Source of the DNA: Bacteroidaceae bacterium
GTDB taxonomy: Bacteria > Bacteroidota > Bacteroidia > Bacteroidales > Bacteroidaceae
Direction of reading: 5' to 3'
Length of the DNA: 64,000 nt
Assembly: GCA_017416805.1 (NCBI GenBank)
Contig: JAFQBB010000039.1
Location: 87,609-151,608 of the forward strand
Part shown: piece after piece, positions 7,186 to 26,372 of the stretch
Layout: the number at the start of each line of letters is the position of its first letter
Numbering within the stretch: the first letter of the stretch is position 1
Notes under the pieces: generated by a model
The model's database searches: none
Seen by the model: only the letters and a program-made list of their open reading frames with translations
Told to the model about the DNA's origin: nothing
Position numbers and translations under genes: made by a program

Positions 7186-8406
7186 TCAGAGATTGCGTAT
7201 CACCAGAGTCGAGTTTGTTCCTCCGAATCCGAACGAGTTGGAGAGGAAGGTGTCAAAATTCTTCTCTATGCGTTTGTCGGGGATAAGCAACTTGGCCGAA
7301 TCCTCATCAGGGTTCTCAAAGTTGAGGTTAGCGGCAATGAAGCCGTTTTTCATCATCAGCATAGAGTAGATTACCTCGCTGGCACCGGCCATCCACATTT
7401 CGTGTCCTGTCTGGCTCTTGGTGCTGGTCACCTCGATGCGGCGGTCTCCGATGACGTTGTAGATAGCTTTAGCTTCGTTGGTGTCACCCACATGGGTTGA
7501 TGTGGCGTGTGCATTGATGTATCCGATTTCGTTTACGTCGATACCTGCACGGCGTATGGCCATCAGCAACGATTTGGTAGGTCCTTCCACGTTGGGTGAA
7601 GAGATATGGTCGCCATTGGATGAGAATCCGTATCCAAGGATTTCGGCCAGGATAGGAGCACCACGGCGTACGGCCGATTCATAACTCTCTATGATAACCG
7701 TAGCTGCACCTCCTCCAGGTACAAGTCCGTCACGGTCGCGGTCAAACGGACGGCTGGCCTTGGTAGGTTCGTCTTCGCGGACAGAGAAAGCCGAGATACC
7801 GTCGAATGATCCTATTGACCAAGGGTTCACCTCCTGAGCTCCACCACAAACCACCATTTCCTGTAGTCCGTTCTGGATGAGCAACGCACCAAGGCCGATG
7901 GCATGCGAACCACTGGCACAAGCGCCACTGACGGTGAGGTTGATACCTTTCAGTTTGAAGATGCAACCAAGGTTCATGGTTACTGTAGAGTTCATTGATT
8001 GGAAGATGGCTCCCGAGCCTACGAGTGTAGTATCTTTCTTCTCGCGCATGGCATCGACGGCTTTCACGTTGGGCACGGTAGAACTGTCGTTTCCATAAAG
8101 CAGACCGACATCGTGCGTGTTCAGGTAGTCCTGGTCAATGCCGGCATTGCGGAGAGCATCTGCGGTGGCGCAATAAGCATATTGGGCCTGTTGTGGCATA
8201 TATACGCGTTGGGCACGGCTGAGCACCTTTTTCAAGTCCGGATCTTCGAGGTGGGCGGTCAGTGCCGAACGGAATCCCATTTCTTTGCGGATAGGGTCAA
8301 AAACTATGCCCGACTTACCGTTGTAGAGCGAGTCGCGCACCTCATCCAAGGTTTTTCCAAGGCATGAATAGATTCCCATGCCGGTTATTACAACTCTGTT
8401 TTGCAT
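7186..8406 (-). CDS. Beta-ketoacyl-ACP synthase (FabF/FabB-like)
   Basis: This is a 406-residue condensing enzyme. The catalytic triad is intact: Cys163 in SGACASG, His300 in NAHATSTHVGD and His335 in KSQTGHEMWMAG. The two-His/one-Cys type condenses malonyl-ACP with an acyl primer. The GHEMWMAGASE variant and the operon context point to a specialised pathway and not to primary fatty-acid synthesis. No ketoreductase is seen in the operon, so that step must come from elsewhere, for instance housekeeping FabG. Confidence 0.88.
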   Translation of the reverse strand: MQNRVVITGMGIYSCLGKTLDEVRDSLYNGKSGIVFDPIRKEMGFRSALTAHLEDPDLKKVLSRAQRVYMPQQAQYAYCATADALRNAGIDQDYLNTHDVGLLYGNDSSTVPNVKAVDAMREKKDTTLVGSGAIFQSMNSTVTMNLGCIFKLKGINLTVSGACASGSHAIGLGALLIQNGLQEMVVCGGAQEVNPWSIGSFDGISAFSVREDEPTKASRPFDRDRDGLVPGGGAATVIIESYESAVRRGAPILAEILGYGFSSNGDHISSPNVEGPTKSLLMAIRRAGIDVNEIGYINAHATSTHVGDTNEAKAIYNVIGDRRIEVTSTKSQTGHEMWMAGASEVIYSMLMMKNGFIAANLNFENPDEDSAKLLIPDKRIEKNFDTFLSNSFGFGGTNSTLVIRNL

Positions 8407-11780: not shown

Positions 11781-13544
11781 ATGCGTACATACTTCCTGTC
11801 CCTTGCATTTGTTCTTTTATCCATCTTTCCCGCCACAGGGCAGGAAAGCCTTTTCCGTCCCCCCTTTGACTTCCCCCTATTCTTAAGCGGAAATTTTGCC
11901 GAACTTCGGAGCAACCATTTTCACGGAGGAGTTGACTTCAAGACACAAGGCGTGGAAGGCAAACCCCTTCTTTGTCCTGCCGATGGCCATATCTCCCGCA
12001 TCAGTGTCTCCCCCGGAGGATATGGCAACGCCCTCTATATCACCCACGACAACGGCTATACCACCGTACATGGACACCTGCAACGCTTCCTTCCCGAGGT
12101 GGCCGCCCTTGTGCGCGAACATCAATACAAGTACCAGACCTTTCCCCTCGATACCACCCTTGCCCCCGACCGCTTTCCCGTAAAGCAAGGAGAGGTCGTA
12201 GCTTGGGCTGGCAACTCCGGCTATTCCTTCGGCCCTCACCTCCACATGGAAGTGCGCCTTACGGAAACCAATGAGCCGGTCAATCCCCTCGTTTTCTATA
12301 AGGACAAGCTGAAAGATACACGTCCGCCCCGTGCCCACCGCATCAAGATATATCCCATGAAAGGGCAGGGCATAGTCAATGAATCAGAGGCACCCCATAT
12401 CTCCGCCTTCGGTAAAGGAAACCACATAGCCCAGCCCCTTACCGCATGGGGTAAAGTCGGGATAGCCCTCTCCGCCAATGATTACATGGACGGCACGCAC
12501 AACACCTATGGCGTATATAGCATCCGCCTGCTGGTCGATGGAGAGGAAGTCTTCGCCTCCTGCACCGACCGCTTCAGTTTTGATGAAAACCTCCTGATAA
12601 ACTCATGGACAGACTATGCCGAATACCGTACCCGTAGCCGGTGGTACATGAAATCATTCGTAGCCCCGGGCAACCCCTTACGCATGTTGCATACCCAAGG
12701 CGAAGGCAGAGGCATTGTCACCATCAGCGAAGAGCGCCCCTACCATTTCGAATACATCCTCTCCGACCTTCATGGCAACACCTCACGATACACTTTCGAG
12801 ATAACGGGAAAATCCCACCCCCTCTTTGAGACCACCCCCTCTTCGTCTATCCTCAAGTGGGATAAGGAAAACACCATCTCCCATCCGCTCGGCCTCAAGT
12901 TGACCATCCCCCACGGACGGCTTTACGAAGATGCCGACCTTCGCGTCTCAGTATCGTCCGATGCTGAAGCCTATTCCTCCGTCTATAGCCTCGAAGGCGA
13001 AGCCATCCCCCTCTATGGCTATTCTCCCATAGCCATCAAAGTATGGCCGGATTGTGCACAAAGTCCCTCTCCCTCTTCCGGGAGCGACAACCTCCTTTCC
13101 GCATGGCACCGCCCTTGGCCAACCATACCCCCTGCGTATGCCTCCAAACTCTATATCGCCCATCGTCAGAATGGACATACCTCTTCCTTAGGCGGACGTT
13201 ACGAAGCAGGATGGATGAAAGCACAGTTGCGCGAGTTAAGCGGTCATTACTTCGTAGCCATCGACACCATTTCGCCCCTTCTGACACCCCTCATGCCCGA
13301 AAAGTGGTCAAAGACAGGCATTATCTGCCTCAAGGTAACCGATGCCCAAACAGGCATCACCCATTATCGTGCCACCCTTGATGGCCGTTGGACCCTGATG
13401 GAATACAGTAGCAAGAACCGTCAGTTCACCATCCGTCTTGCCCATTCCCCCTTAAAGAAAAAAGGCCTTCTCCACGACCTCACCATCCACGTCACCGATG
13501 GCGTAGGCAATACCACCACCTTCCGCCGTAAGGTGAGATATTGA
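11781..13544 (+). CDS. Exported M23 family metallopeptidase
   Basis: This is a secreted peptidoglycan endopeptidase-type protein of 587 residues. A signal peptide (MRTYFLSLAFVLLSIFPATG) precedes the M23 domain with zinc ligands His48 and Asp52 in HFHGGVDFKT and the HLH motif (His153, His155) in SFGPHLHMEVR. The long C-terminal part (about 200-587) has beta-rich segments with no recognised domain. The frame is open upstream to 11664, but that part runs through a repeat element and lacks a signal peptide, so 11781 is preferred. It probably cleaves peptide cross-bridges in the periplasm. Confidence 0.88.
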   Translation: MRTYFLSLAFVLLSIFPATGQESLFRPPFDFPLFLSGNFAELRSNHFHGGVDFKTQGVEGKPLLCPADGHISRISVSPGGYGNALYITHDNGYTTVHGHLQRFLPEVAALVREHQYKYQTFPLDTTLAPDRFPVKQGEVVAWAGNSGYSFGPHLHMEVRLTETNEPVNPLVFYKDKLKDTRPPRAHRIKIYPMKGQGIVNESEAPHISAFGKGNHIAQPLTAWGKVGIALSANDYMDGTHNTYGVYSIRLLVDGEEVFASCTDRFSFDENLLINSWTDYAEYRTRSRWYMKSFVAPGNPLRMLHTQGEGRGIVTISEERPYHFEYILSDLHGNTSRYTFEITGKSHPLFETTPSSSILKWDKENTISHPLGLKLTIPHGRLYEDADLRVSVSSDAEAYSSVYSLEGEAIPLYGYSPIAIKVWPDCAQSPSPSSGSDNLLSAWHRPWPTIPPAYASKLYIAHRQNGHTSSLGGRYEAGWMKAQLRELSGHYFVAIDTISPLLTPLMPEKWSKTGIICLKVTDAQTGITHYRATLDGRWTLMEYSSKNRQFTIRLAHSPLKKKGLLHDLTIHVTDGVGNTTTFRRKVRY

Positions 13545-13563
13545 CATTATAGGTTCATTGGCC

Positions 13564-13625
13564 AAGTATCTTAAGATACTTCCCGCTTTATCTTAACTTC
13601 TCGGGGCATTTATCTTAAGATACTT
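13564..13625. promoter_or_regulatory. Repeated TATCTTAAGATA palindromes
   Basis: AAGTATCTTAAGATACTT (13564-13581) is a perfect 18-bp palindrome. A partial copy TATCTTAA lies at about 13590 and a second TATCTTAAGATA at 13611-13622. The cluster lies just after the M23 gene. The function is not known; repeated operators or a folding element are possible. Confidence 0.5.
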
Positions 13626-13845
13626 ATCTCCATCCCTAATTTCAATTAAATTGCAGAAGGGCCGTCTTGAACAGTGAAAGTCTGTAATCCTGAGCGGATA
13701 GTGAAAAATGTCAGAGATTTGCCAACAGCCATAGTGAGAAGCCCAGTCATTGCCATTGTAAAACTCAATCCCTACACCCTACACCTTTAAACGCATTTTA
13801 TTATTCACTCCTTCATTCTTAATTTGGATTAAGCGAAACTTCACC

Positions 13846-13958
13846 AGTAGCTCGTAGCTCGTCACTCGTAGCTTGTCACTAGTTACTGAATTTGTGTTCT
13901 TCAGCATGTTTTTGCAAAATAATTTATAATTCATAATTCCTAATTCATAATTAATTTC
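13846..13958. repeat. Heptanucleotide repeats (TAGCTCG, then TAATTCA)
   Basis: Two short 7-bp-period runs occur: TAGCTCG/TCACTCG units at 13846-13886 and ATAATTC/CTAATTC units at 13922-13958. I see no gene between 13545 and 13958. Confidence 0.75.
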
Positions 13959-14290
13959 TATATTTGTCTCGTTTCTTGCGCCGAAGCCTTCGCGGGAAGG
14001 AGGTAGGGGTGGGAACACAGACATGTGAAAAGGCGTTTATCAGCGCTTTGTTCTTGGCGTTTCAGAACTTCGCAACTTCTCAAACAGTAGCCAATGAACA
14101 TTGCAATGGTAGATGTCCCAGGGTGTGTAATATGCCCATGTTGTATCCGTGTGAACATTGTACGGATACCGTGGTTACATATATGCATATCGGCGTGGGG
14201 CTTCTGCATTGCTCGTTCAGACTACTGTGGGCAATGCGAAGGCCTCGAAACGCGGGACGGGCAATGATACAGGCTCCCGCGCTTTTTTTT
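13959..14290 (+). ncRNA. Candidate structured leader/ncRNA upstream of tubulin-like system
   Basis: A -7 box TATATTTG (13959-13966) precedes about 300 bases without a convincing gene but more GC-rich than the genes downstream. A hairpin GTATCCGT/ACGGATAC lies at 14146-14172. The segment ends in a GC-rich terminator at 14251-14290. This could be a small RNA or an attenuated leader of the operon starting at 14373. No known RNA family was recognised. Confidence 0.35.
14251..14290 (+). terminator. Intrinsic terminator before lipoprotein gene
   Basis: CGCGGGA (14251-14257) pairs with TCCCGCG (14275-14281) and an eight-T run follows. It stands about 80 bp before the start of the tubulin-like operon, so it may attenuate it. 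Confidence 0.65.
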
Positions 14291-14372
14291 ATGTGGATGT
14301 ATCACAAAAGAATACCATAAATAACTGTTCGTTTTGGGGAGTTTGCGGGCATAATAATGAGTGCATACATAT

Positions 14373-14738
14373 ATGAACAAACTCGCATCATTGTATAAAG
14401 TATTTTGTTTTTTCTTCATCACCACATTATTTGCATGTGGTATAAATAGCAAAGATTCTTATTTAGAATCTTTTGAAGAATTTGTTGTGAAAATTGAAAT
14501 GGATGAAGATATAACAGAGGAAGAGCTTACATCAGCAAAGAAGAAATATTTGGATTATACCGAAACTTATTACAACAAGTACAAGGAAGAATTAACTAAC
14601 ACAGAAAAAGAGATGGTCGTCAAGTTAAAAGCACGTTACTATGCAGTAATGGCCAAACAAGGATTAAAAGATGCTGGTAGTGCATTGAAAGAATTGGGTG
14701 AACAAGCAAATGATTTAATTAATGATATGCTGAAATAA
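14373..14738 (+). CDS. Small lipoprotein of tubulin-like system
   Basis: This is a 121-residue predicted lipoprotein. The N-terminus has a hydrophobic stretch ending in the lipobox LFAC (Cys22), and the rest is strongly charged and probably helical. It reminds me of small Bacteroidetes lipoproteins of the DUF6565 kind, but this is from memory. The ATG at 14373 is preferred over the GTG at 14361. Only 2 bp separate it from the vWA gene, so the two are co-transcribed. Function unknown. Confidence 0.75.
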   Translation: MNKLASLYKVFCFFFITTLFACGINSKDSYLESFEEFVVKIEMDEDITEEELTSAKKKYLDYTETYYNKYKEELTNTEKEMVVKLKARYYAVMAKQGLKDAGSALKELGEQANDLINDMLK

Positions 14739-14740
14739 TC

Positions 14741-15745
14741 ATGAAACTTAGAATTATATATCTTTTTTGTTGTGCCTATTTGATGGTAACTGTTTCGTTG
14801 GCACAACAGAGTCGTTTCAAGAATGAAAGACGTATTTATCTATGGGATGTGACATTATCAATGAAAGGAGGAGGTAGCCAACCAACCCCAAACATTTACG
14901 ATAAAGTTGTTGATGCTCTTGAAAAAGACATCAATAGTATAAATGATGAACAGACTGAAATTTTGGTGCTTCCTTTTCAAACGTCTATTTTGGACTATTG
15001 GAAAACCTTAGCGACCTCTACGGGAAAGAAATCTTTAATTGATAAGATTAAAGATTTCAATAATAATAATCTGACTAAAACAAACATTGCGTTACCCATG
15101 GAAAAGGTTATGACCACATGGATTAAACCTGACAAGCGTAATGTGTTGATTCTTTTAACAGATGGTATTCAGAATGCCACTCCTAAACAGGAACTTATAG
15201 AGCAGATTCAAAAATGGTGTAGAATTGCTGAAAAGAATGATGCACATGCTTTTTATGTGATGTTGACGCAATTTGCTCAAGATGAAGAATTGATAAAAGT
15301 TATAGATGAAACATGTCGAATGTCTAAAATTGTCATAGATGATGATTTTGATATAAATTTTGTAGAATTACTACCCCAATCCAATTATAAATATAATATA
15401 AAGGATGATGCTGGTAAAAAGTTGTCTCTTCAAATTGAATATAAAAAGAATATCAAGATTCCAGAAGATTTGGAGGTGCTATGTTATTGTGAACCGAATC
15501 CTTATGTTGATATAAATCAAACCGCCACTATAAAAAACAATTTGTTAGAGATAGCAATGAAGCAGAAACAATGTTATGATTCATTAAAAGTAAGATTGCC
15601 ACAAAATGTAAATGAACAAATTATGGTTCATTTTGAAATGAAAGAACCTGAAAAGCATCCAAAAGTACAATTACTGAATGATGAATGTACTTTAGAATTG
15701 ATAAATAAACCTGAAAAAACATTAAAAGTCTATGTTAAAGATTAA
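14741..15745 (+). CDS. Exported von Willebrand factor A domain protein
   Basis: This is a 334-residue protein with a signal peptide (cleavage near AQQ, residues 21-23) and an N-terminal vWA domain. The MIDAS metal site is DVTLS (Asp36, Thr38, Ser40; the first Ser of the usual DxSxS is Thr), with Thr114 and TDG (140-142) as the further ligands. This would bind a divalent metal and mediate protein contacts in the periplasm. The C-terminal third (about 210-334) is beta-rich and unassigned. It overlaps the next gene by 14 bp. vWA proteins are known partners of FtsZ-like family proteins in predicted membrane-remodelling systems. Confidence 0.85.
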   Translation: MKLRIIYLFCCAYLMVTVSLAQQSRFKNERRIYLWDVTLSMKGGGSQPTPNIYDKVVDALEKDINSINDEQTEILVLPFQTSILDYWKTLATSTGKKSLIDKIKDFNNNNLTKTNIALPMEKVMTTWIKPDKRNVLILLTDGIQNATPKQELIEQIQKWCRIAEKNDAHAFYVMLTQFAQDEELIKVIDETCRMSKIVIDDDFDINFVELLPQSNYKYNIKDDAGKKLSLQIEYKKNIKIPEDLEVLCYCEPNPYVDINQTATIKNNLLEIAMKQKQCYDSLKVRLPQNVNEQIMVHFEMKEPEKHPKVQLLNDECTLELINKPEKTLKVYVKD

Positions 15746-16640
15746 ATCATATATTTGTTGGATAATTACTACTCTTGTATTGGTTTCTTGCGAAAAAGAG
15801 ATTGATACTTCTATGTTGTGGGGAAAGACTGATTATTATACAGATTTCATGTTTTATGAATATGAACCGGTGAGGATGACAAAAACCATTTGCTTTGATG
15901 CAAATAAAGATTCTGAAGGCCGTGTAGGGAATGTCAGATTCAGTCTTTATAAGATGTCAAATGATAGTACTTATGTTCCTGTAAAAGACGATATTCTTTT
16001 ATATAAAAATGAAAACCTTTGTAGCGATAATATATTAGAAATTACGCCTCATGACAAAGAGATAAGATTAGGAATAGAATTTACTCCTACTGCAAAAGAG
16101 GGAACGCACAAATGGTTCTTGAAAGTCTTAGATAATGGAGGATTCGACCGAATCAATGACTATTCAACAGAAGATGAAGCATTGCCTTTATTATTGGAAT
16201 GGAAAGCTGAAAAGAATAATGTATCAAATCCTTTGGCATTAGGATTAGGATGGTTATTCTTTATTCTGTTAGGTCTTCTTTTGATATGGTTGTTCATCAT
16301 GAAGCCTATAATGTATCCAACATTTAAAGTGGGTAATATACAAATCATAAGTGGTTCATATTATTCAACTAAAAAAATAAACAAGGCACGAAAATTAGTT
16401 GTGACCTCATCCCCTAAAAGACAAAGTTCCGTAAATAAATTCTTTACTGGAAAAATCATCTATGAACGAAATGAAATGTGGAAAGATGAATGGGAATTAC
16501 ATCCCAAAGGGAAAGGGGCAAGATTGGTAGGCAATCGAAAATATACAATAAATCCGTTCGCTGTTTCATTAGAAAAACATAATGAATATCAATTAGAACA
16601 TTTGGAGTCAGAGGTTAAAGCAAAAATTACACTATTGTAA
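15732..16640 (+). CDS. Lipobox plus transmembrane adaptor protein
   Basis: This is a 302-residue protein of unknown family. It has an N-terminal signal with lipobox LVSC (Cys20), an extracytoplasmic beta-rich part (20-165), one strong membrane helix (about 167-192) and a basic C-terminal part of about 110 residues that should be cytoplasmic. It is thus placed to connect the exported vWA protein with the cytoplasmic tubulin-like protein. It overlaps the vWA gene by 14 bp and is followed after 24 bp by the tubulin-like gene. The topology is inferred from hydrophobicity. Confidence 0.7.
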   Translation: MLKIKSYICWIITTLVLVSCEKEIDTSMLWGKTDYYTDFMFYEYEPVRMTKTICFDANKDSEGRVGNVRFSLYKMSNDSTYVPVKDDILLYKNENLCSDNILEITPHDKEIRLGIEFTPTAKEGTHKWFLKVLDNGGFDRINDYSTEDEALPLLLEWKAEKNNVSNPLALGLGWLFFILLGLLLIWLFIMKPIMYPTFKVGNIQIISGSYYSTKKINKARKLVVTSSPKRQSSVNKFFTGKIIYERNEMWKDEWELHPKGKGARLVGNRKYTINPFAVSLEKHNEYQLEHLESEVKAKITLL

Positions 16641-16664
16641 ATAATAACTTAAATATATAATATT

Positions 16665-19418
16665 ATGGCAACTAAAATTAGAAGATGCCTATATGTTGGA
16701 TTAGGCGGTACAGGAATGAGCGCATTGCTCAACACAAAGAAAACATTTGTTGAAACTTATGGTGAAGTTCCTCCCATGATTGGATTCTTGGGTATTGATA
16801 CCGATGGAGGAGTATATAGAAGAGAGTTAGATTCCAAACATGGTAAAATATCATTAAGTCCAAATGAACAATTACCTATTAAAGTTGATGATGCGAGACC
16901 TATTTATGAGGTAGAAAAATCACATTTTGGATGGTTGCCTGAAGATAATTTATATGCCTTAACTTCTATGACGTTAGGTGCTGGACAAGTTCGTAGTAAT
17001 GGAAGATTTGCTTTAACAGTCAATCACAGAGATGTAGAAGATAAGATAAAATCAATGATAAACTCCATCACACAGGCTTCTATTACAAGTAATGTGAAAT
17101 ATGAGTTATTGGCAACAGAAGTTGAAATTCATGTCATATTTTCTGTTTGTGGAGGCACAGGATGCGGAACATTTATTAATATGGCTTATTTATTACGTAA
17201 ATGTGCTCCCAAATGTAAAATCACTGGATATGGAGTGTTGCCTGATGTATTTGAAGCAATGTCATCAACAGGTATGGCGAAAGTAAAACCTAATGCATAT
17301 GGTGCGATTCAAGATTTAGATTGGTTGATGCATTTAAGTTTAAACAGTGATAAGGTTGCTTTTGATTATATCAATTATATACAGGAAACAAACGAAAAAC
17401 CTTTCAATGCATTCTTTTTTGTTGATAACAAGAATTCAAACAATGATTCTTACTTGCATGTTGACCAATTAACAGAGATGATAAGTTTGGCTTTGGTAAC
17501 TTCTGCTGGAGAATTATCAACCGCTGCAGCCAGTGTCAGTGATAATCTGGAGAAAAATATCAGAGAAGGCTCAATGGATATAGAAAACAAAAAAGCATGG
17601 GCTGCAGGATTGGGAGTTTGCGAAATCATGTATCATGGAGAAGATCTTAAAAAACTATATGCTTGCAAAACTGCTACAAGAGTCATTGAACGTCTATTAA
17701 ATAGTTGTGTTGATTCCAATACGATTGTTAATTCATGGATAGATTCTCCCAATGTGAATATCCGAGAAAATAATGGTTTTGATAATGTTATCAATTTTAT
17801 GCTGAATCAACAACCTCCTTATCAATTAACAGTAATTGATGATAAAGCTAATGCGACTCCAGAAATTGACAGTTATATAAAATCTGCAAAACCCAAAGAT
17901 GGTGAGGTTGAAAGGAAAATACAAGAATTGAATAGCAGAGTCGTTAATGAACTTCATGACTTGATAAAAAAAGAAATAAATCAAGAATGTGGAATTGGAG
18001 CTGCAGAAAGTATAATATTGGGAATTCAAGCTCAAGTTGATTTGTTTTTGTCAGAAATGAATGCCGAAGTAAATGAGTTGAATGAACAATTACCAAGAAT
18101 AGAATCTTCATTAAAAATTGCAATCAATGATTTAGCAGAATATGATAGCAGATTTTTTAAAAGAAGAGGAGTGCTCGAAGAATATGCCAATGGTGTCATA
18201 GAAGTTGCATCTCGAAAAGTTATATGTGAACGTGATATCATTAGACGTAATGCCGCTATCACATTTTACAATGGATTAAAAACAGAATTATTAGATATAT
18301 ACAATAAGGTGTCCAATATAAAAAGGATGCTGATTGTTATATCTGAAGAAATGACAAACCGGATAGCAGAAATACAAAATCATGTAGGAAAAGCGTCACA
18401 AACATTCCAAATTGATTTGGCTCAAGAAGAAATCTCTCAAATAGTAATAAAAGATGCAGAGATACAAATTTCAGAATTTCTAAAAACATTGTCTTCTGAA
18501 AACAAAATTTTCGATTTTGACAACAAGAGAAAGGATGAGGTTATTAATCTGTTACTAAATTATACAACAGAGTTACCAACATCAAGAAGTTTTGGAAATA
18601 AAACTATTGATGATGTATTAGACAATATGGAAGAAACGGAATTTGAACAAATTCTTCAAATGGCTATAAATAAATCTAATCCACTTCTCAGGTATGATTA
18701 TAGAGGCTATACTCCGATGGAAAGACCGGCTAATAGTTATTATATAGGTGTTCCTAATAAGAAATATTCGCGTTTATGTAAAGGGGATAAATTTAAAAAT
18801 CTATTACAAGGTCATATTGATGTTGATTTTGCAAGTATAGGGGTAAAAGACAGAGTTATAATATATCGGCAAGTTGGAGTAATGCCTGCATATTGTATAT
18901 CTTCTTTATCCTCATGTCAGGAAAAATATAATAACATTATGTCTATGACGGATCATTATATTCCTCATTTTGATAAAAATATATATATAAAAATGCAACG
19001 TGAAGATTATAGTCTATATCCTAAAATTGCATCTGATGACAGTCTCGAATTATGGGTAAAAGGATTCATCTTTAATCTTGTAAAGAATGAGAATGATATG
19101 TATTACTTCAAAAGCGACGAATTAGGGGATCCATTAGATGACAATTGGGTCGAACTTGCGAAATATCGTGATGAAGCATTTGATATATTTAAACGACAAA
19201 AAGGTATTATCAGAAAAGAATTCAATGACTTCTTTACCCAATATCAGAAGACCAAAGGAGCTGACAATATGAAATTGTTAGTAGATGATGCCAAAAATAA
19301 CTATTTTGTAAAATATTCTCAAATCAATATGACACGGGAAGAAATAAAGCAGAAAGGGTTTGAAGTCATCCGCAAATTGATTACTGATGAGTTAGAATAC
19401 GTAAAGAAAGAATTGTAA
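16665..19418 (+). CDS. Tubulin/FtsZ-superfamily GTPase-like protein
   Basis: This is a 917-residue protein. The N-terminal part has the nucleotide-binding features of the tubulin superfamily: YVGLGGTG (10-17) and the signature loop CGGTGCGT (162-169), equivalent to GGGTGSG of FtsZ/tubulin. It belongs with the large bacterial tubulin-like family (Pfam Tubulin_2 type), not with FtsZ: it is more than twice as long and followed by a long helical, probably coiled-coil region (about 420-680). It is expected to bind GTP and may polymerise. It has no signal peptide and should be cytoplasmic. The vWA, adaptor and protease genes on either side are in the same transcription unit. Codon use is AT-rich, unlike genes outside 14.4-23.2 kb. 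Confidence 0.85.
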   Translation: MATKIRRCLYVGLGGTGMSALLNTKKTFVETYGEVPPMIGFLGIDTDGGVYRRELDSKHGKISLSPNEQLPIKVDDARPIYEVEKSHFGWLPEDNLYALTSMTLGAGQVRSNGRFALTVNHRDVEDKIKSMINSITQASITSNVKYELLATEVEIHVIFSVCGGTGCGTFINMAYLLRKCAPKCKITGYGVLPDVFEAMSSTGMAKVKPNAYGAIQDLDWLMHLSLNSDKVAFDYINYIQETNEKPFNAFFFVDNKNSNNDSYLHVDQLTEMISLALVTSAGELSTAAASVSDNLEKNIREGSMDIENKKAWAAGLGVCEIMYHGEDLKKLYACKTATRVIERLLNSCVDSNTIVNSWIDSPNVNIRENNGFDNVINFMLNQQPPYQLTVIDDKANATPEIDSYIKSAKPKDGEVERKIQELNSRVVNELHDLIKKEINQECGIGAAESIILGIQAQVDLFLSEMNAEVNELNEQLPRIESSLKIAINDLAEYDSRFFKRRGVLEEYANGVIEVASRKVICERDIIRRNAAITFYNGLKTELLDIYNKVSNIKRMLIVISEEMTNRIAEIQNHVGKASQTFQIDLAQEEISQIVIKDAEIQISEFLKTLSSENKIFDFDNKRKDEVINLLLNYTTELPTSRSFGNKTIDDVLDNMEETEFEQILQMAINKSNPLLRYDYRGYTPMERPANSYYIGVPNKKYSRLCKGDKFKNLLQGHIDVDFASIGVKDRVIIYRQVGVMPAYCISSLSSCQEKYNNIMSMTDHYIPHFDKNIYIKMQREDYSLYPKIASDDSLELWVKGFIFNLVKNENDMYYFKSDELGDPLDDNWVELAKYRDEAFDIFKRQKGIIRKEFNDFFTQYQKTKGADNMKLLVDDAKNNYFVKYSQINMTREEIKQKGFEVIRKLITDELEYVKKEL

Positions 19419-19429
19419 ACGATATCTAT

Positions 19430-22400
19430 ATGAGACACACAGCATTTTTGGTCCTGGGTACTGATTCAAATAATATTTGTGCAGATATAAAGAAGTATGT
19501 AATGATGTATGGTGAAGGTAATACTGATGATTACTTTCAAGTAATTAATTGGAATTGCCAAAACGGATTACATACTGCGATGTTTGCTCAAAGAGAAGAT
19601 GCAAATGAGCAAGAATTCTGTTCAAGCATAAAGGATGAATTTTATATCAAGTTAAAAAATGCTGAAGAAATGAGAACCGAAGAAGAAGTTGCACACTTCT
19701 TCTCGGTTCTTTATGATCGTACAGTTACTATTAGAAATCAAGGAGATTGTCATTCTCTTCATTTAACAATATTGTTGCCATTGTACAATTCCGAACTTTG
19801 TACTGAAGCAATATTAATAGTGAAATTGTTGGACAAGATTCGACAATCTTATGTTGTTGATGTTATAGGATTTTCTGATGATATGGCATACTTATTTTCA
19901 TGTAAAGATGAATTGAATAATTTGCCATCTAATCACAAGAAAAATAAAGAGAATGTCATTAAAACTTGTGAGGAGATTAAAGAACTAAAATCAAGTAGCA
20001 AACACCGATTCATAATGATGCAAAATCATAATTCAAAAGGTGTCTCATTAGATTTAAATCAAGATTCTATTACCGGAATTTTGGGCGAATATGCATTGAT
20101 TTGCATAGAAAATTACAATACAATATTCCCTATTTCGGAAGAAAGTGAACAATGTGAAGTTTGTGCAATAGGATTGTCCGTATTGAGTCTTGACAGATAT
20201 TATTTTGTAGATTATCTGCTGAAAAAAGCATATTTGAAGGTTTTGAGTAGAGAAAATGTAACTCAAAAAGAAGTAGATATAAATAAGGTGTCTCAAGTTG
20301 CTCAAAATAGTTTGAATGGTCGTACGAATTTGTTTTCTGATTTCTATGACCAGCATGTTGTTCCTTTGATAAAGCAAGGAAAATCGGAGGAAAATATAAT
20401 AGCCGAGATAACACCTAAGTTGGATGAAGAAATTGCGATATTATCCCAAGAAATTCAATCATTTATCAATAAAAAAGATTTGTCATTACCAGAAAAGCAA
20501 GCTTCATTGGCTCAAATACTTGGTACTGATGACAAACTGTTGAAAGGATATCAATACAATAAATCCCAATTGACAATAGATGATTGTGATAGTGAAGCTG
20601 TCAATTTGTTTATTACGGAAAATAACAAATTGATTAAAAGAGAAAAAGATGAAAATGGGGATGTTATTATTACTCCATCGGTGCTTCGTTCTCCGTGTGA
20701 TAAAGAAGGAAATGTATATTTGCCATTAGAACAACTTAAGAATTTGCGCTCAAAAATTAAGGAATCAACCAATTATATTCGTGAAAAAAGCAAAGAACTT
20801 GATGAACTTCAGAACCAATTGAAAAAGGATGAGAAAAGTCAAATCCGATTAACAGAAAACGGATTTGTATATGGTAACTCTACATATAAGCTGTTGGATG
20901 TAAAGGAAAAACCTCTGCAAGATAATTATGAGCCTAATGTCACACCCAAAAATGCTGTTGATTTACGACAATATTTTACGGAAATTAAAGATCAGGGAAA
21001 TTTGGGGACATGTTCAGTCTTTTCACTTGTTTCTATATATGAGTATATCTTGAAGAAAACAAATCGCGAACATGATTTGAGTGAACGTTTTGTGTACTAT
21101 AATGTATTGAATGATGCAGGGTGTATAGATGATACTGGATCTTCTCTGTATGGTGTAGTTGAATCAATAACAAAATATGGTACTTGTTTGGAGGAATTTT
21201 GTAAATACGACATTGCACAATACCAATTAGCCCCTTCTGTTGAAGCATACACTAATGCCGAAACTCATAAAATCAAATGTGCCAAGAATATAAAAGTAAA
21301 TCGCACAGATATTATGTCTGCTTTGTCAGAAGGTTATCCAATTGCAATATCCTTAAAAATTTATGATTCTTTTGGTATCAATAACAATGGATTTGTGTTT
21401 AGACCATCTGATGAAGAGATTGAAGAAGGGAAATATGGAAATCATGCGATGGTTATATGTGGTTACAGCACTGATGATAAAGTGTATATCGTAAGAAACT
21501 CATGGGGAAAAGATTTTGGAGATAAAGGTTATTGCTATATACCTTTTTCATATATAGAAGACTCCAATTTTACTAACTCTGCATGTATAATAACATCTAT
21601 TAATGAAGGTGAAGAAGTAAAAGGTTCTAATCAACAAACATTTGTCCCTTTTAACAAAACAGATAGGGAGATTCGATATTCAATCATTCGAATTCTTGTT
21701 GATGAAGAAAAAATTGAATTGGCTGAAAATAAAGATAAATATGGAAATCTGAGAATAGATTACGAAGCATTAGTTCAAACATTATGTAATAATAGCAAAC
21801 GAAATGAATTGATTGAAAAAACAAGAAATAGAATAAAAAATGAAATAGAAAACGATGAGAATTCCTATAATTCATTTGTCGATACCGAAAGAAGAAATAA
21901 ATTGAATGAGTATAAGAGGAATGGAAGATCTATATTTTATACAATGGTAGCATTTTCATTTGCATTAGCAACAACATGGGGTATTTGTGTTACGCAAGTT
22001 GAAAATTGGATGACGAATGATTGGAATTGGATATTGATAGGAGCATTGATTACTACAATTCTTACAATTATTGGATATTGGTCGTTTAAGAGACATCATT
22101 ATCGAGTTTTGAAAAATGAAATGGAAGAATGCGCCCAACAGAAAGCGGCAAATCTTAATAAGAAAAAAATAGAATGCAATTCTATACAATTACGTTTATA
22201 TATTGCAGGAATGATAATAGATAGACTGAATGTCCTACAGAAAGAACTTCATGATAAATATACTTTGATGAAATCGTATGTGGGAAACCTTTCTATATGG
22301 TATGATGAAGAACAACGAAAAATACAGGATATGGAACCTCTTTCGAAGGAGCCATTTCTTCCATTGTTGAATAATAAGATTTTAGAGAATTATTTTGAAA

Positions 22401-22861
22401 ATAATGGAGAGTATTTAACGGAAGGATTGTATCTATATGAATTCCTAAATAAATATGAATTAAGCGAAAAAGGAATAAAGGAATATAAAACAGATATAAA
22501 GAAAAAATTAATACAAATATTAAATAAGCCTTTAAACGAATTTAAATTATTGGCATATATCCAAAATGATAATCTATATCTATATTTGGATAAGACTTAT
22601 TCAGATATAACTACATTATTACCTTTGTTAGAACGTAAGGGAGGATATTTTTTGCAAACAAGGATTACTGAAATAGATAGAATAAATGATGTCTCAAAAT
22701 GCTTGTTTATAAATCAAGAAACACAAAATGAAAGGAACAGATGGAATCAAGAATTTCCAAAGTTTTTCCAAAAGCGTCCAAATACAGAAACCATATCTTC
22801 ACCATATAAATTAGTTGTCCTTCAAAAAGCAAATTTGAATATGGATAGTGTGGTTATTTGA
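19430..22861 (+). CDS. Large membrane-anchored papain-like (C1) protease
   Basis: This is a 1143-residue protein. Residues 1-500 are unassigned with a coiled-coil-like stretch near 440-480. A papain-family peptidase domain follows (about 505-735) with all catalytic residues: Gln522 and Cys528 in DQGNLGTCSVFS, His672 in NHAMVICGY and Asn690 in RNSWGKDFGDKGY. Two membrane helices (about 836-855 and 867-884) form a hairpin with an acidic short loop and basic flanks, so by the positive-inside rule both the protease domain and the 260-residue C-terminus lie in the cytoplasm. It is 11 bp behind the tubulin-like gene. Secreted C1 proteases are common in Bacteroidetes, but an inner-membrane cytoplasmic one joined to a tubulin-like operon is unusual. 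The substrate is unknown. Confidence 0.85.
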   Translation: MRHTAFLVLGTDSNNICADIKKYVMMYGEGNTDDYFQVINWNCQNGLHTAMFAQREDANEQEFCSSIKDEFYIKLKNAEEMRTEEEVAHFFSVLYDRTVTIRNQGDCHSLHLTILLPLYNSELCTEAILIVKLLDKIRQSYVVDVIGFSDDMAYLFSCKDELNNLPSNHKKNKENVIKTCEEIKELKSSSKHRFIMMQNHNSKGVSLDLNQDSITGILGEYALICIENYNTIFPISEESEQCEVCAIGLSVLSLDRYYFVDYLLKKAYLKVLSRENVTQKEVDINKVSQVAQNSLNGRTNLFSDFYDQHVVPLIKQGKSEENIIAEITPKLDEEIAILSQEIQSFINKKDLSLPEKQASLAQILGTDDKLLKGYQYNKSQLTIDDCDSEAVNLFITENNKLIKREKDENGDVIITPSVLRSPCDKEGNVYLPLEQLKNLRSKIKESTNYIREKSKELDELQNQLKKDEKSQIRLTENGFVYGNSTYKLLDVKEKPLQDNYEPNVTPKNAVDLRQYFTEIKDQGNLGTCSVFSLVSIYEYILKKTNREHDLSERFVYYNVLNDAGCIDDTGSSLYGVVESITKYGTCLEEFCKYDIAQYQLAPSVEAYTNAETHKIKCAKNIKVNRTDIMSALSEGYPIAISLKIYDSFGINNNGFVFRPSDEEIEEGKYGNHAMVICGYSTDDKVYIVRNSWGKDFGDKGYCYIPFSYIEDSNFTNSACIITSINEGEEVKGSNQQTFVPFNKTDREIRYSIIRILVDEEKIELAENKDKYGNLRIDYEALVQTLCNNSKRNELIEKTRNRIKNEIENDENSYNSFVDTERRNKLNEYKRNGRSIFYTMVAFSFALATTWGICVTQVENWMTNDWNWILIGALITTILTIIGYWSFKRHHYRVLKNEMEECAQQKAANLNKKKIECNSIQLRLYIAGMIIDRLNVLQKELHDKYTLMKSYVGNLSIWYDEEQRKIQDMEPLSKEPFLPLLNNKILENYFENNGEYLTEGLYLYEFLNKYELSEKGIKEYKTDIKKKLIQILNKPLNEFKLLAYIQNDNLYLYLDKTYSDITTLLPLLERKGGYFLQTRITEIDRINDVSKCLFINQETQNERNRWNQEFPKFFQKRPNTETISSPYKLVVLQKANLNMDSVVI

Positions 22862-22943
22862 TTGTAAAGTTATAGAACTACATAAAAAAACACATTCGTA
22901 CACCACAAATTGGTTGGTGTTTTACAAATAATATTTTCATAAC

Positions 22944-23240
22944 ATGAACAAGATCCTCCCTATTTTTGCTCTCGCTTTATTTGCTTGTTTGTTACCTATG
23001 CCATACGGATATTTCATGTTGGTACGCTTTGCGGCAATGATAATTTTTGCCCTAATGGCTTATGGATATTATAAACAAGAAAAAGAGGGGATAGCTATCT
23101 TCTTTGGTGCAATGGCAGTTCTATTCCAACCTCTATTCAAAATTTCACTTGACCGCATTACGTGGAATGTTGTAGATGTAGCAATGGCGATATTTTTATT
23201 CATTTTATGGTTAAAAGAGAAAGGGTATATTAAAAAATGA
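22944..23240 (+). CDS. Small membrane protein (DUF6804-like)
   Basis: This is a 98-residue protein with three to four membrane helices and the block LPMPYGYFMLVRF. It resembles the DUF6804 family of small Bacteroidetes membrane proteins, recalled from memory. It lies 82 bp behind the protease gene and in the same AT-rich segment; whether it belongs functionally to the tubulin-like system or is a common passenger cannot be told. Confidence 0.7.
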   Translation: MNKILPIFALALFACLLPMPYGYFMLVRFAAMIIFALMAYGYYKQEKEGIAIFFGAMAVLFQPLFKISLDRITWNVVDVAMAIFLFILWLKEKGYIKK

Positions 23241-23332
23241 AATAGAATATTTTATGAAACTCAGGAAATCATTTATATCTAATATTATCGGGCACAATAC
23301 GTATGATGAATCCCCAAAAAATATCCTATATA

Positions 23333-23382
23333 ACCTATAAATATAAATATGTACGCGCGCGTACATATTTATATTTATAGGT
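23333..23382. repeat. Perfect 50-bp palindrome
   Basis: The arms begin ACCTATAAATATAAATATGT and meet at a central CGCGCG; the reverse complement is identical over all 50 bases. It lies about 90 bp after the small membrane protein gene. It could form a cruciform or a long RNA hairpin acting as a terminator. Confidence 0.9.
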
Positions 23383-23627
23383 GTAAACAATACTCGGATG
23401 GAAATGACGAAAGTGTAAAAACTTTCAGGGAGCTTTCAATAAAAGCGTCTACGAATGTAGTTAATGAAACAGAAAACCGTCTACTGAAATCAGGAAAAGA
23501 CAGGAAAAACAAGGTTTCCAAAAGAAATGAACAGTTAATTCCGTTCGCGAACCGAATAAACACGGTTCCTGAACGGTGTTAACTCTGTTCTTCCGAAGGG
23601 GGATAAAAGTGAAGATGCCATGTGCTT

Positions 23628-23712
23628 TAACCGTCATTTTATGACAAAATAGGCTGATTTATACCGTTACTTTATGACAAATTTCATGTGTTTATACCGT
23701 TACTTTATGATA
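23628..23712. repeat. Three iteron-like direct repeats
   Basis: CCGTCATTTTATGACAA (23631), CCGTTACTTTATGACAA (23664) and CCGTTACTTTATGATAA (23698) are spaced 33-34 bp, about three helical turns, which suits repeated protein binding on one DNA face. Confidence 0.65.
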
Positions 23713-23833
23713 ATCTTGGATTGATGTTATGACTAAACTTACTGTGATATAGTGATTTATGAGATAATGCTTGTCAGAACGAAAAATCAGTCCGGTAAAG
23801 AACTGTTAGAGGCTGTTAGAGGCAATAACATAC

Positions 23834-23975
23834 GGCTTGCTGAATGAATAATCAGAGCTTGCCTAAGTGGACTGTTTGCGGCTTACCCAAGTGAAATACT
23901 TACGGCTACCCTAAGTGAACTATAAGCGGCTTGGGAAGTGAACTATAAGCGGCTTGACAAATGAACTATAGTTCA
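23834..23975. repeat. Six degenerate ~23-bp tandem units
   Basis: Units of the form GGCTTGCCTAAGTGAACTATAAGC repeat about six times with drift, the last ending in the palindrome TGAACTATAGTTCA near 23962-23975. The array lies about 150 bp before the promoter of the next gene. Confidence 0.65.
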
Positions 23976-24121
23976 CTTGAGATGCCTTCTGTAGGGCTAT
24001 GAATTAAGGGCGTTTAAACATAGAAAATAATTTATAGAACCTCTCTTAACTGCTTTTCTTGCCTAAAACTGAGCTTTTACTAAATCGGGTCGCAAATGGT
24101 TGAATATTTGAAATATGTTTG

Positions 24122-24129
24122 TACCTTTG
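24122..24129 (+). promoter_or_regulatory. -7 box of transporter gene (TACCTTTG)
   Basis: TACCTTTGC lies 26 bp before the ATG at 24155 and places the start there rather than at the upstream ATG at 24119. Confidence 0.7.
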
Positions 24130-24154
24130 CAGCCGGAATCAAAATTCAAAACTT

Positions 24155-24838
24155 ATGGACAAGGTATCGGAAAACCCTTTCAAAAACCGAAGAGGCAATG
24201 GCATTGACACGCCGTTGCTTGTGGTGACAGCTCTTTTTGTCACACTTTATCTTACTTCAAACATTATGGCCGTCAAGGTCATCAGTATCTTTGGACTTTT
24301 CTATTTTGATGCGGGGACTGTCACTTTCCCTTTCGCTTATATGCTGGGCGATGTGCTTACGGAGTTGTGGGGATTCCGTACGGCAAAGCGGGTTATCTGG
24401 CTGACGTTCTTTTGCAATCTCTTGCTGGTTGTGTGTACGCAGATTGGTGTGTGGTTGCCTTCGCCTGAATATTTGGGCGAGACGGCCGGGGCTTACAACC
24501 ATGTGTTCAATTATGTGCCGCGCATTGTCATTGGTTCATTAGTGGGTTTCCTGCTGGGCGAGTTGAGTAATGCCTGGCTGATGGAGCGGATAAAGGAACG
24601 GACTAAGGGACGCCGCCTGTGGGTACGTACCATCGGGAGTTCGGCCGTGGCTTATCTGTTTGACTCGCTTCCGTTTGTGCTTATTGCTTTTTGGGGTACT
24701 GTCTCTACGCACGACCTCGTGTTGATGATTGCTTTCCAGTATGTATCCAAATTGCTGATTGAGGGATTCTTTGGCACTCCTATGGCTTATGCTTTTATTA
24801 AGGGGATAGCCTCCTTCAAATCCGGCAGGAAAGAATGA
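24155..24838 (+). CDS. Queuosine precursor transporter (YhhQ/VUT family)
   Basis: This is a 227-residue inner-membrane protein with about six helices. The blocks LTSNIMAVKVI, FPFAYMLGDVLTELWGFRTAKRVIW and DSLPFVLIAFWG are typical of the YhhQ/VUT family, which imports 7-cyano- or 7-aminomethyl-deazaguanine for queuosine-modified tRNA. It stands alone with its own promoter; no que genes are nearby. A heptanucleotide repeat begins right at its stop codon. Confidence 0.85.
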   Translation: MDKVSENPFKNRRGNGIDTPLLVVTALFVTLYLTSNIMAVKVISIFGLFYFDAGTVTFPFAYMLGDVLTELWGFRTAKRVIWLTFFCNLLLVVCTQIGVWLPSPEYLGETAGAYNHVFNYVPRIVIGSLVGFLLGELSNAWLMERIKERTKGRRLWVRTIGSSAVAYLFDSLPFVLIAFWGTVSTHDLVLMIAFQYVSKLLIEGFFGTPMAYAFIKGIASFKSGRKE

Positions 24839-24936
24839 GCTACGAGCTATGAGTTACAAGCTACGAGTTACAAGCTACGAGTTATGAGCTACAAGTTATG
24901 AGCTATGAGCTACGAGTTATGAGCTACGGGTTACAA
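24837..24936. repeat. Heptanucleotide repeat (GAGCTAC/GAGTTAC)
   Basis: About fourteen 7-bp units (GAGCTAC, GAGTTAC, AAGCTAC, GAGTTAT) directly follow the transporter stop codon. They are the complement of the satellite at 10139-10574. Confidence 0.85.
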
Positions 24937-24995
24937 GGATAATCCACGAATAGAGGTGCTGGCAAACAATACGGATTTGGGAGTGGGGGAGTTGT

Positions 24996-25064
24996 GATTT
25001 ATGATTTGTGACTGCGGAGCTGATGAGGGCTGTGCTCGAACTAATTATGAATTATGAGTTTCTG
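24996..25064. repeat. 69-bp direct repeat, copy 1 (hipBST left border)
   Basis: This copy matches 67 of 69 bases with 26711-26779. The two copies enclose the hipBST operon. The core CTGCGGAGCTGATGAG also occurs near 30494. Confidence 0.85.
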
Positions 25065-25081: not shown

Positions 25082-26062
25082 TTACCCTACTATCTTTTCT
25101 AAGCGTTCTTCTATCAATGCTTTATAAATTCCTTTTATATTTTCAGACAAAAATGAGGAGTCAATGAGGGAGAACCACTTTGGTTTGTACCGATGAAACT
25201 TATTGAGAATATTTTTTGAGACGTTTGCGGATATTCCACTTTGTGCCATCGCTTCAAGGAAATCGGATTTGTCGAACTCGCCAATCGCGGTGTCATCATC
25301 TGCCCCATATTCCATGAGTGGCATTGCCAATTCATCTTTGTCATCAATGCCGGTCAAAAGCACGGCAAGCAGGTCGTATGCCGGAGCAAGTATATAGCCA
25401 TTATCGGGTGTTTCAATCAGGGAAAAGTTCTTACAGTGCATATCGGAGTTTCCTGTTATCCATGAAAATATGACTATTTCCCAAAAGCGTTGAACGTCAA
25501 GTAATGGTGCAGATGAATGCTTACGAATAACTTCGGCCAGCTGAATGTACGATCCTCGGTATTTGTGTTCGGTCAACCGATTGGTCAGTTGGCACATATC
25601 CAATAAAGAATGCTTTCTACCATCTTCTCCGCGATCTATTCTGCGGGTAATATAGGCCAATTCTCCGTCGCTCATCCTTATCAATCCATGGGGAACTGTA
25701 GAGATGCCTGCGATTTCAGCCATTTTCATAGTTGTATCTTCAAGTTCGGGGATGGCGTTGTATTTGGGACTTTGTGGTTTCAGAATATAGTTTCCCCGCA
25801 ACCCTGCGATGGTGAGTTTGTCGGCTTCATTTTTTCCTCCTCGGTTGAGCTCTAATGAAAGTTTGGCCTGAACACCCGTGACGGAGGAATTGGACTTTAA
25901 TACATCCAAAGCAAGGTCGGCGATATTATCCCGCGAATATGGCAATATGGGAGCTTGCCGGCTGCCGAATAATTTACGCGCACATGCCGGATGGTAGTCA
26001 ATCTCACCATTTTTCAAAGGGCGGTAGCAACAAAGGCATTTACTATTATTTATTTTCTCCAT
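25082..26062 (-). CDS. hipT: HipT-like serine/threonine kinase toxin
   Basis: This is a 326-residue HipA-type kinase lacking the usual N-terminal subdomain, which is encoded separately by the upstream gene. Kinase features: the Gly-rich loop SSVTGVQAKL (59-68), Lys95 in YILKP, the catalytic Asp207 in GNSDMHCKN and the metal-binding Asp230 in APAYD. An N-terminal CxxC...HxxC motif (Cys9, Cys12, His24, Cys27) probably binds zinc. HipA/HipT kinases phosphorylate aminoacyl-tRNA synthetases (GltX or TrpS in studied cases) and stop growth; the target here is not known. It overlaps the hipS-like gene by 17 bp. Confidence 0.85.
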   Translation of the reverse strand: MEKINNSKCLCCYRPLKNGEIDYHPACARKLFGSRQAPILPYSRDNIADLALDVLKSNSSVTGVQAKLSLELNRGGKNEADKLTIAGLRGNYILKPQSPKYNAIPELEDTTMKMAEIAGISTVPHGLIRMSDGELAYITRRIDRGEDGRKHSLLDMCQLTNRLTEHKYRGSYIQLAEVIRKHSSAPLLDVQRFWEIVIFSWITGNSDMHCKNFSLIETPDNGYILAPAYDLLAVLLTGIDDKDELAMPLMEYGADDDTAIGEFDKSDFLEAMAQSGISANVSKNILNKFHRYKPKWFSLIDSSFLSENIKGIYKALIEERLEKIVG

Positions 26063-26372
26063 ACTTCCTTACACTTATATTGCCAATACAATCCTTACAA
26101 CAAGCCAACAGTAACGACATCCTGTCACGCGGATCTATTTTCCATGTATTACGTACAATGTCCAACATCCAACCTTCGGGTATGAGACCATCGAAGACAG
26201 GAAACATAACCTCTTTTTCATAACTTTCAGCTTGCAAAGGCATGGTAGGACTCAATGCCCTGGCGTCAGTACGTTGCAAATAATCTGTATCGTATGTAAA
26301 ATGGAAACCTTCGACATCTTCTGTCAGGATGCCGCAAAAGATATCATTTATATATATACTTGCCCGTTTCAT
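26046..26372 (-). CDS. hipS: HipS-like N-terminal HipA subdomain protein
   Basis: This is a 108-residue protein equal to the N-terminal subdomain of HipA (HipS of tripartite systems). It has the block GLIPEGWMLDIV and the closing CIGNISVRK, matching the HipA region D-x-x-G-A/N-hydrophobic. In the known E. coli HipBST system HipS acts as the antitoxin; the same role is inferred here. It lies 5 bp after the hipB-like gene and overlaps hipT. Confidence 0.8.
   Translation of the reverse strand: MKRASIYINDIFCGILTEDVEGFHFTYDTDYLQRTDARALSPTMPLQAESYEKEVMFPVFDGLIPEGWMLDIVRNTWKIDPRDRMSLLLACCKDCIGNISVRKYGENK

Follow-up and report, generated by a model that had tools for sequence, protein, structure and literature searches.

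The closest described counterparts of the locus studied here are operons in which a tubulin-like protein of the FtsZl1 family (Tubulin_2, PF13809) accompanies a protein with a von Willebrand factor A (vWA) domain. These were described in 2010 by Makarova and Koonin, whose paper (PubMed Central, PMC2875224), in the portions available to us, proposes a membrane-remodelling or vesicle role and includes Bacteroides caccae in its alignment; neither "protease" nor "peptidase" occurs in its main text, additional files aside. Tubulin proteins also belong to the GAP1-N2 GTPase-centric conflict systems of Kaur et al. 2020 (PMC7159879), where the available portions propose a conflict role for the tubulin theme in firmicutes and actinobacteria; papain is mentioned once in the main text, in another system, and calpain and DA1 never. 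No assigned output for FtsZl1/Tubulin_2 operons was found in print, and a search of open-licence PubMed Central papers gave none that we recognised as linking such operons to a protease. The association of vWA with FtsZl1 has been known since 2010; as far as this literature goes, the link to a protease is new. We describe such a link in an operon at 14373..22861 of a 64,000-nucleotide stretch of a Bacteroidaceae bacterium (GCA_017416805.1, contig JAFQBB010000039.1, positions 87,609 to 151,608), here called the window, to which all positions refer unless another locus is named. We lean, with limited confidence, towards reading this operon as a membrane-spanning, GTPase-controlled proteolytic switch.

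The operon consists of five genes, all on the + strand and as tightly packed as an earlier sequence-only reading of the window had reported: A and B are separated by 2 bp, B and C overlap by 14 bp, and gaps of 24 and 11 bp precede D and E. Gene A (14373..14738, or from a possible alternative GTG start at 14361) encodes a small DUF6565 lipoprotein (Pfam PF20203, E-value 2.9e-11), and gene B (14741..15745) a predicted exported vWA protein with a hydrophobic N-terminus (VWA, E-value 1.5e-5, 25.7 bits against a cut-off of 23.8). Gene C (15732..16640), which matched no Pfam family, encodes a putative adaptor with a lipobox, a single transmembrane (TM) segment and, beyond it, a tail on the opposite side. 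The 917-residue product of gene D (16665..19418) is a Tubulin_2/FtsZl1-family protein with a coiled-coil arm (PF13809, E-value 3.8e-48, 165 bits against a curated cut-off of 27). Gene E (19430..22861), in the position that we call slot 4, encodes 1143 residues with a papain-like protease domain and a membrane hairpin (Peptidase_C1, E-value 7.9e-20). Profile searches of all five proteins thus gave DUF6565, VWA, none, Tubulin_2 and Peptidase_C1 in gene order; Cas11a, antiholin and similar matches were disregarded as weak. Contig 23 of the source genome (3.16 Mb in 64 contigs) carries another Tubulin_2 gene, distinct from D.

Relatives were found with D alone, using six short peptide patterns in one scan of the genome collection; gene E was not a selection criterion, and such patterns reach fairly close relatives only. 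Seventeen loci were recovered, from records assigned to Bacteroides, Bacteroidales, Bacteroidia, Prevotellaceae or Paludibacteraceae. C, D and E stand in order in all 17 and B is present in 16, so that the B-C-D-E order is kept in 17/17 if one counts a locus whose contig starts at C (L033) and another in which B and C form one open reading frame (L044). The doubt that had accompanied the sequence-only reading, namely that these genes might rarely be neighbours elsewhere, is thereby removed for these relatives. Identity to the window ranges from 22 to 78%, depending on gene and locus, and is at most 57% in every gene in 16 of the 17. The D-E gap varies from -4 to 88 bp and the C-D gap from 3 to 182 bp. 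Gene order is the same in two further relatives, G1062 and G1066, which genome searches recovered, and the closest named relative is a Bacteroides sp. metagenome assembly (L032), with 77% identity in D. In L044, L054, L055, L069 and L081 the vWA protein and gene C are fused as a single protein, as would be expected if one polypeptide crossed the membrane from its outer face. Gene A does not belong to this conserved core, contrary to the proposal of a five-gene unit: a homolog was seen at two of the 17 loci, beside B in L032 and following E in L047 (E-value 8.6e-5), and gene A is accessory.

The residues expected of each component are well conserved. In gene B the core of the metal ion-dependent adhesion site (MIDAS), D36-x-T38-x-S40 (14846..14860), and the further residues T112, T114 and D141 are invariant in 16/16 alignment rows; the MIDAS recognised from the sequence is therefore present, with a D-x-T-x-S rather than a D-x-S-x-S core in all 16. 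The lipobox cysteine of gene C, Cys20 (15789..15791), is invariant in 17/17 rows (the window and 16 loci, the fused L044 being omitted). A hydropathy peak near residues 172-185 occurs in all 17 rows, corresponding to the single TM segment at about 172-190 (16245..16301), and the description of gene C as a lipobox/TM adaptor holds. Gene D carries the T4 GTP-binding loop CGGTGCGT at residues 162-169 (17148..17171), with the GGTGxG motif (G163, G164, T165, G166 and G168) invariant in 19/19 rows. It has no TM segment, and its structure model shows a tubulin/FtsZ fold followed, after the GTPase domain, by coiled-coil helices at 414-438, 443-494 and 501-575; model and PF13809 match agree with its assignment to the tubulin superfamily. 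Gene D may hydrolyse GTP and form filaments.

In gene E the papain-like C1 protease domain spans residues 501-730 approximately (20930..21619), passes the PF00112 cut-off and adopts a papain fold in the model. The catalytic residues Q522, C528, H672 and N690 are kept in 20/20 rows, the alignment identifying Cys528, singled out earlier, as the catalytic cysteine; E may thus be proteolytically active. The expected membrane anchor takes the form of a hairpin at residues 835-886 or so (21932..22087), made of hydrophobic segments at about 835 and 868; two segments are found in 17 of the 18 rows and one in L043. There is no N-terminal hydrophobic segment, and basic residues flank the hairpin on both outer sides, for which reason both ends of E and the protease are most simply placed in the cytoplasm. 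A SLATT-like identity of the hairpin was rejected (NCBIfam SLATT_1, E-value 0.011, 15.7 bits against a cut-off of 41).

To avoid choosing loci by their similarity to the window, we also drew a sample with PF13809 alone as the query. Its cut-off was passed by 34 of the 199 genomes from the family and by 10 of the 395 from the phylum, and the neighbourhoods of 33 and 9 of them, respectively, were covered, the weak G089 and G867 being left out. A vWA/Tubulin_2/slot-4 layout was present in ten loci, seven from the family (G000, G093, G112, G153, G180, G090 and G082) and three from the phylum (G804, G871 and G813), with the vWA assigned by profile in the first five and by Pfam in G871. Seven of the ten encode a peptidase in the operon, five of them passing the Pfam cut-off. 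For example, slot 4 contains a papain (C1) domain in G000, papain together with a class-3-lipase-like domain in G093, which has a DA1-like metallopeptidase gene adjacent, and a calpain domain in G112 (Peptidase_C2, E-value 1.3e-13, with GDCY, ENHAY and NPWN motifs). A DA1-like protein lies beside slot 4 in G153 (29.6 bits, cut-off 25), and G082 has a DUF2268 protein (25.5, cut-off 23.6). The slot-5 proteins of G090 and G804 have a DA1-like C-terminal end (33.6 and 29.7 bits; hhalign probability 96.8% for G090), a call made with our own profile from three DA1-like proteins, Pfam giving only DUF6782 below its cut-off. G804 was included on the match of the gene downstream of its slot 4 to the G090 slot-5 gene (1.7e-52). 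As to the remaining loci, a truncated gene that ends 30 bp before the vWA gene of G871 has a Peptidase_MA_2 match below cut-off (E-value 0.0022); G813 is ambiguous, since an M48-TerB gene lies 1.3 kb upstream and a gene with a transglutaminase-like match below threshold lies downstream; and G180 encodes no peptidase on the operon strand, the opposite strand encoding an S15-type hydrolase. Across the 39 tubulin-positive genomes, four of the seven strong C1 matches (E-value < 1e-10) are inside such operons (G000, G093, and G1062 and G1066, both of which were found through D). A genome-level search of the 39 for the DA1-like family gave no match, and none from its controls either, although hmmscan recovers the family in proteins of two of these genomes; the result is given no weight here. 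Since similar chassis carry a calpain, a DA1-like or other metallopeptidase, or a papain plus a lipase, the hydrolase looks like an exchangeable output. No claim here depends on the tree of D, whose deep support is weak. Two individual loci may be noted: in L069 (1954-5826) slot 4 combines papain with a class-3-lipase/Mbeg1-like domain, Mbeg1-like over and Lipase_3 just under its cut-off, and in L042 (16983-17930), one of the 17 loci, a gene with LIM and DA1-like metallopeptidase domains lies about 5 kb downstream of E.

Several observations weigh against an operon built around a proteolytic output. In G090, G082 and G813 the vWA protein is identified solely from motif and position, and in G804 it would lie past the contig end. 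Slot 4 has no recognised protease in L054 (G562) and L055 (G289), both found through D, or in L061; the nearest downstream genes scanned at these three loci encode a DnaJ domain, Sel1 repeats and SH3/DUF families; L061 has an S15-type hydrolase on the opposite strand. In the 39 tubulin-positive genomes, three of the seven strong papain matches and four of the five calpain matches are not beside a tubulin gene. By hhalign, the slot-4 proteins of the remoter L055, L063, L065 and L084 have no clear similarity to E, and the remoter chassis are therefore alike in layout more than in sequence. Finally, no defence model in PADLOC-DB 2.0.0 fits genes A-E: the best match was Cas11a for B (E-value 0.055), and A, C, D and E gave none at E-values up to 1.

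Composition and distribution mark the operon as horizontally acquired and patchy. Genes A-E have a GC content of 30.5-32.2%; the value is 44.4% for the window as a whole and 48-53% in flanking genes (49.9% for nadC, encoding quinolinate phosphoribosyltransferase, 53.1% for an M23 gene and 48.4% for a transporter gene). At an E-value of 1e-15, D found no match in the genus outside its own genome (14 genomes, of which nine are less than 90% complete). The D profile matched 9 of 399 family genomes, in four of which the match reached no better than 1e-20 to 1e-15, and 2 of 395 phylum genomes, its own genome included; D as a single protein matched 4 of 393 genomes in the order. In L106 the place after M23 is taken by a DUF2971 gene of 34% GC, whereas in L104 the very next gene is a Peptidase_C69 gene; L105 retains the transporter gene. 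The exact insertion boundary was not found, the window flanks being on different contigs in relatives.

Neither plasmid nor phage carriage of the operon could be substantiated. Searches with E gave 25 plasmid records, the best 20 of which cover 17-21% of the query, in the C1 domain only, and the best of them (Deinococcus) has no tubulin gene annotated within 20.7 kb. Among phages, D matched a single record, an unverified faecal scaffold of 9.8 kb with a vWA-like gene followed by a Tubulin_2-like one, which looks like a piece of bacterial DNA; none of 20 pattern matches in viral contigs is a relative. The DNA of L089 (MT836542.1), labelled a phage, has by eye a vWA-like/TM gene, then a Tubulin_2-like gene, together with ordinary-looking bacterial genes, and is probably bacterial. 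Around the operon, a segment of about 130 bp just upstream (14172-14303) recurs beside M23 in G1009 (L106, 1392-1522), with no Rfam match listed; an AT-rich palindrome with a CGCGCG core lies downstream (23328-23390); and adjoining HipA C-terminal and N-terminal genes (25082-26372) constitute a split HipA-type toxin. RNA genes in 13000-25000 were rejected, the seven matches being to microRNA models below Rfam gathering scores, six of them on the palindrome.

In the mechanism that we propose, the vWA protein and the outer part of C would respond to an envelope ligand or to damage, and the C tail would nucleate or release assembly of D at the inner membrane. D would assemble with GTP and gather E subunits, possibly via the D-like ends of E, activating the protease by proximity, and the activated protease could then cut cytoplasmic targets or itself. 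The sequence-only reading had drawn a similar line from sensor through adaptor and GTPase filament to protease, and it stands in part: gene order, folds and active-site residues are observed here, and the steps from sensing and transmission to assembly and activation are inferred. Given its horizontal origin and patchy distribution, the operon most probably serves a conditional response, e.g. defence or growth arrest under stress. Exchangeable effectors on a conserved nucleoside triphosphatase chassis also favour a response of the defence or stress kind, this being the logic of conflict systems as laid out in the available portions of PMC7159879.

Other explanations have to be set against this switch. 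One is that the operon serves anti-phage defence specifically, by protease-driven abortive infection. Its patchy, acquired distribution, its exchangeable hydrolases and the low-GC DUF2971 gene after M23 in L106 would suit such a role, as would the classing of related tubulin/vWA gene sets as conflict systems (PMC7159879, available portions). However, there is no direct pointer to phages in the data, and PADLOC has no model that fits genes A-E. Proteins with 150 or more residues within 4.5 kb of the 17 operons were also compared with PADLOC at an E-value of 1e-10 (76 of 93 scanned): 106 models matched, and the 25 listed comprise 24 PDC-S01/S02 models, matching two proteins each, and MTase_I, so that the defence-gene content of the flanks is unsettled. 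An outside-facing vWA protein is, to our knowledge, unusual for phage defence, which also tells against this explanation, and we consider it unlikely, though worth keeping in view. The same core gene pair as in the FtsZl1 operons (PMC2875224, available portions), the tubulin fold and coiled coil of D and the membrane segments of the adaptor and E would suit a membrane-remodelling or vesicle machine, in which D filaments are tethered by vWA and adaptor and the protease only matures or recycles the machine's own components. But unrelated peptidase families and a lipase on similar chassis fit an output better than processing, and the operon is rare, low in GC and accessory; we hold this to be unlikely too.

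An export or maturation device, whose protease would process a secreted cargo such as a NucA-like nuclease, is suggested by the gene that follows E at 3-7 bp in L033, L037, L040 and L045 (starting at 7245, 8320, 16274 and 16248, respectively) and encodes such a nuclease with a signal-like start, identified as Endonuclease_NS by Pfam in L033 and by homology in the other loci. The gene lies farther downstream in L043 and L032. No member of the nuclease cluster was seen in 11 of the 17 loci, some of whose stretches are short, nor at the window operon, and L033, L040 and L043 share further neighbours and are thus not independent, which makes export improbable. Mere co-occurrence without joint function, for which nothing speaks beyond the general possibility, can hardly be credited given an order kept in 17/17 loci, 16 of them at most 57% identical in every gene, together with the overlapping genes and the vWA-adaptor fusions. 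The earlier interpretation as a whole is partly supported.

Tubulin_2 genes also occur in other layouts. One of these, a separate conserved operon without a recognised vWA, is here called System I; its commonest partner cluster was seen in 26 of the 42 loci surveyed, and it is the only layout in 26 of the 33 family genomes (partner clusters are displayed for 25 of the 26, G193 not among them). In contig 23 of the window's own genome (L053, 4904-14239) and in relatives it has a fixed gene order comprising a three-TM protein, a 1030-residue tubulin, a zinc-ribbon TM protein and five further genes, several products having signal-like starts; no peptidase was found among the seven partner genes in the one locus scanned. 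In L064 (6980-9304) and L114 (6087-8411) a 774-residue degenerate tubulin gene lies directly 5' of the 1030-residue one, which suggests that asymmetric tubulin pairs exist in System I as well. A third layout (L056, L143 and L142, from G418, G974 and G648) combines a vWA-like protein, recognised by motif or eye and not confirmed by Pfam, with a small three-TM protein and a tubulin. HSP70 domains are nearby in G418 and G974 and a kinase domain in G974; the four genes scanned in G648 gave no HSP70 or kinase match. In L126 (3-3035) a Tubulin_2 protein ends in two C-terminal GYF_2 domains (E-value 3.1e-22).

A more tentative lead concerns the N-terminal alpha/beta domain of E (residues 1-345, 19430..20464). 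Slot 4 might itself be a tubulin paralog from which the GTP loop has disappeared and to which a protease has been added, so that D and E would form an asymmetric pair or heteropolymer. The start and end regions of slot-4 proteins align along much of D, and by alignment E is without the T1 glycines and the T4 loop. Pooled slot-4 N-domains scored 30.2 in hhalign against D residues 1-440, above 20 column shuffles (at most 17.7), the reversed profile (18.5) and nine unrelated profiles (at most 20.3); slot-4 C-domains scored 32.3 against D, with 30 shuffles reaching at most 16.4, the reversed profile 15.2 and nine unrelated profiles at most 17.8. As positive controls, System I tubulins gave 183 for the N-domain and 44 for the C-domain, and the degenerate tandem tubulin 38.7. 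In the D and E models secondary structure agrees at 61% of aligned positions, compared with a mean of 38% and a maximum of 51% in 330 circular shifts. On the other side, among single remote slot-4 N-domains only two of seven exceed 20.3 (L065, 24.9, and L144, 24.8), the non-protease trio scores 23.5, and a fold search with whole E returned a match list filled by papain. The hhalign probabilities are 7% for the N-domain and 20% for the C-domain, the N-domains of the window clade by themselves reach 18.9, less than the 20.3 of the best unrelated control, and D 166-222 (one strand and parts of two helices) is out of register with the E model. System I tubulins (residues 151-419) moreover align to the pooled N-domain in another register (26.9), which counts further against the idea, and on balance we think a pseudo-tubulin unlikely. 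If it did exist, a membrane-anchored D-E scaffold, triggered from outside the membrane, could activate papain, calpain or metallopeptidase by proximity in the manner of an inflammasome, and bacteria would then have an asymmetric tubulin pair in which the second subunit carries an enzyme.

The favoured switch makes a recurring, exchangeable peptidase an assayable output for FtsZl1/Tubulin_2 operons, and predicts a bacterial tubulin acting as a scaffold for signal-controlled proteolysis rather than in division or DNA movement. Compared with its neighbour in the same genome, System I on contig 23, the operon shares a Tubulin_2 protein with membrane partners; unlike it, System I has a tubulin of about 1030 residues, a three-TM protein, six other conserved genes and no recognised vWA. 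The E protease belongs to peptidase family C1, with xylellain (3ois) as the nearest solved structure, by its papain fold and its Q/C/H/N residues, and differs in its predicted cytoplasmic location and in sitting within a 1143-residue protein between an alpha/beta domain and a membrane hairpin. With the GAP1-N2 systems, as represented in the available portions of PMC7159879, the operon has in common tubulin proteins (sometimes two per neighbourhood there), an extracellular vWA, membrane parts and variable components; unlike them, it showed no such GTPase gene in A-E, where Pfam and NCBIfam gave no GTPase family, the search set containing no GAP1 model. The likeness to the FtsZl1 operons of PMC2875224 (available portions) extends to a coiled-coil Tubulin_2 protein, a neighbouring metal-site vWA, whose gene accompanies the tubulin gene in 16 of the 17 loci (the remaining locus being cut by a contig end), and membrane-associated, lineage-specific partners. 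For those operons the paper stresses protein kinases, a P-loop GTPase and OmpA-like proteins as partners, frequent though not obligatory, none of which Pfam found in genes A-E; unlike those operons, the one described here and its close relatives constantly combine a TM adaptor with a protease-bearing slot 4.

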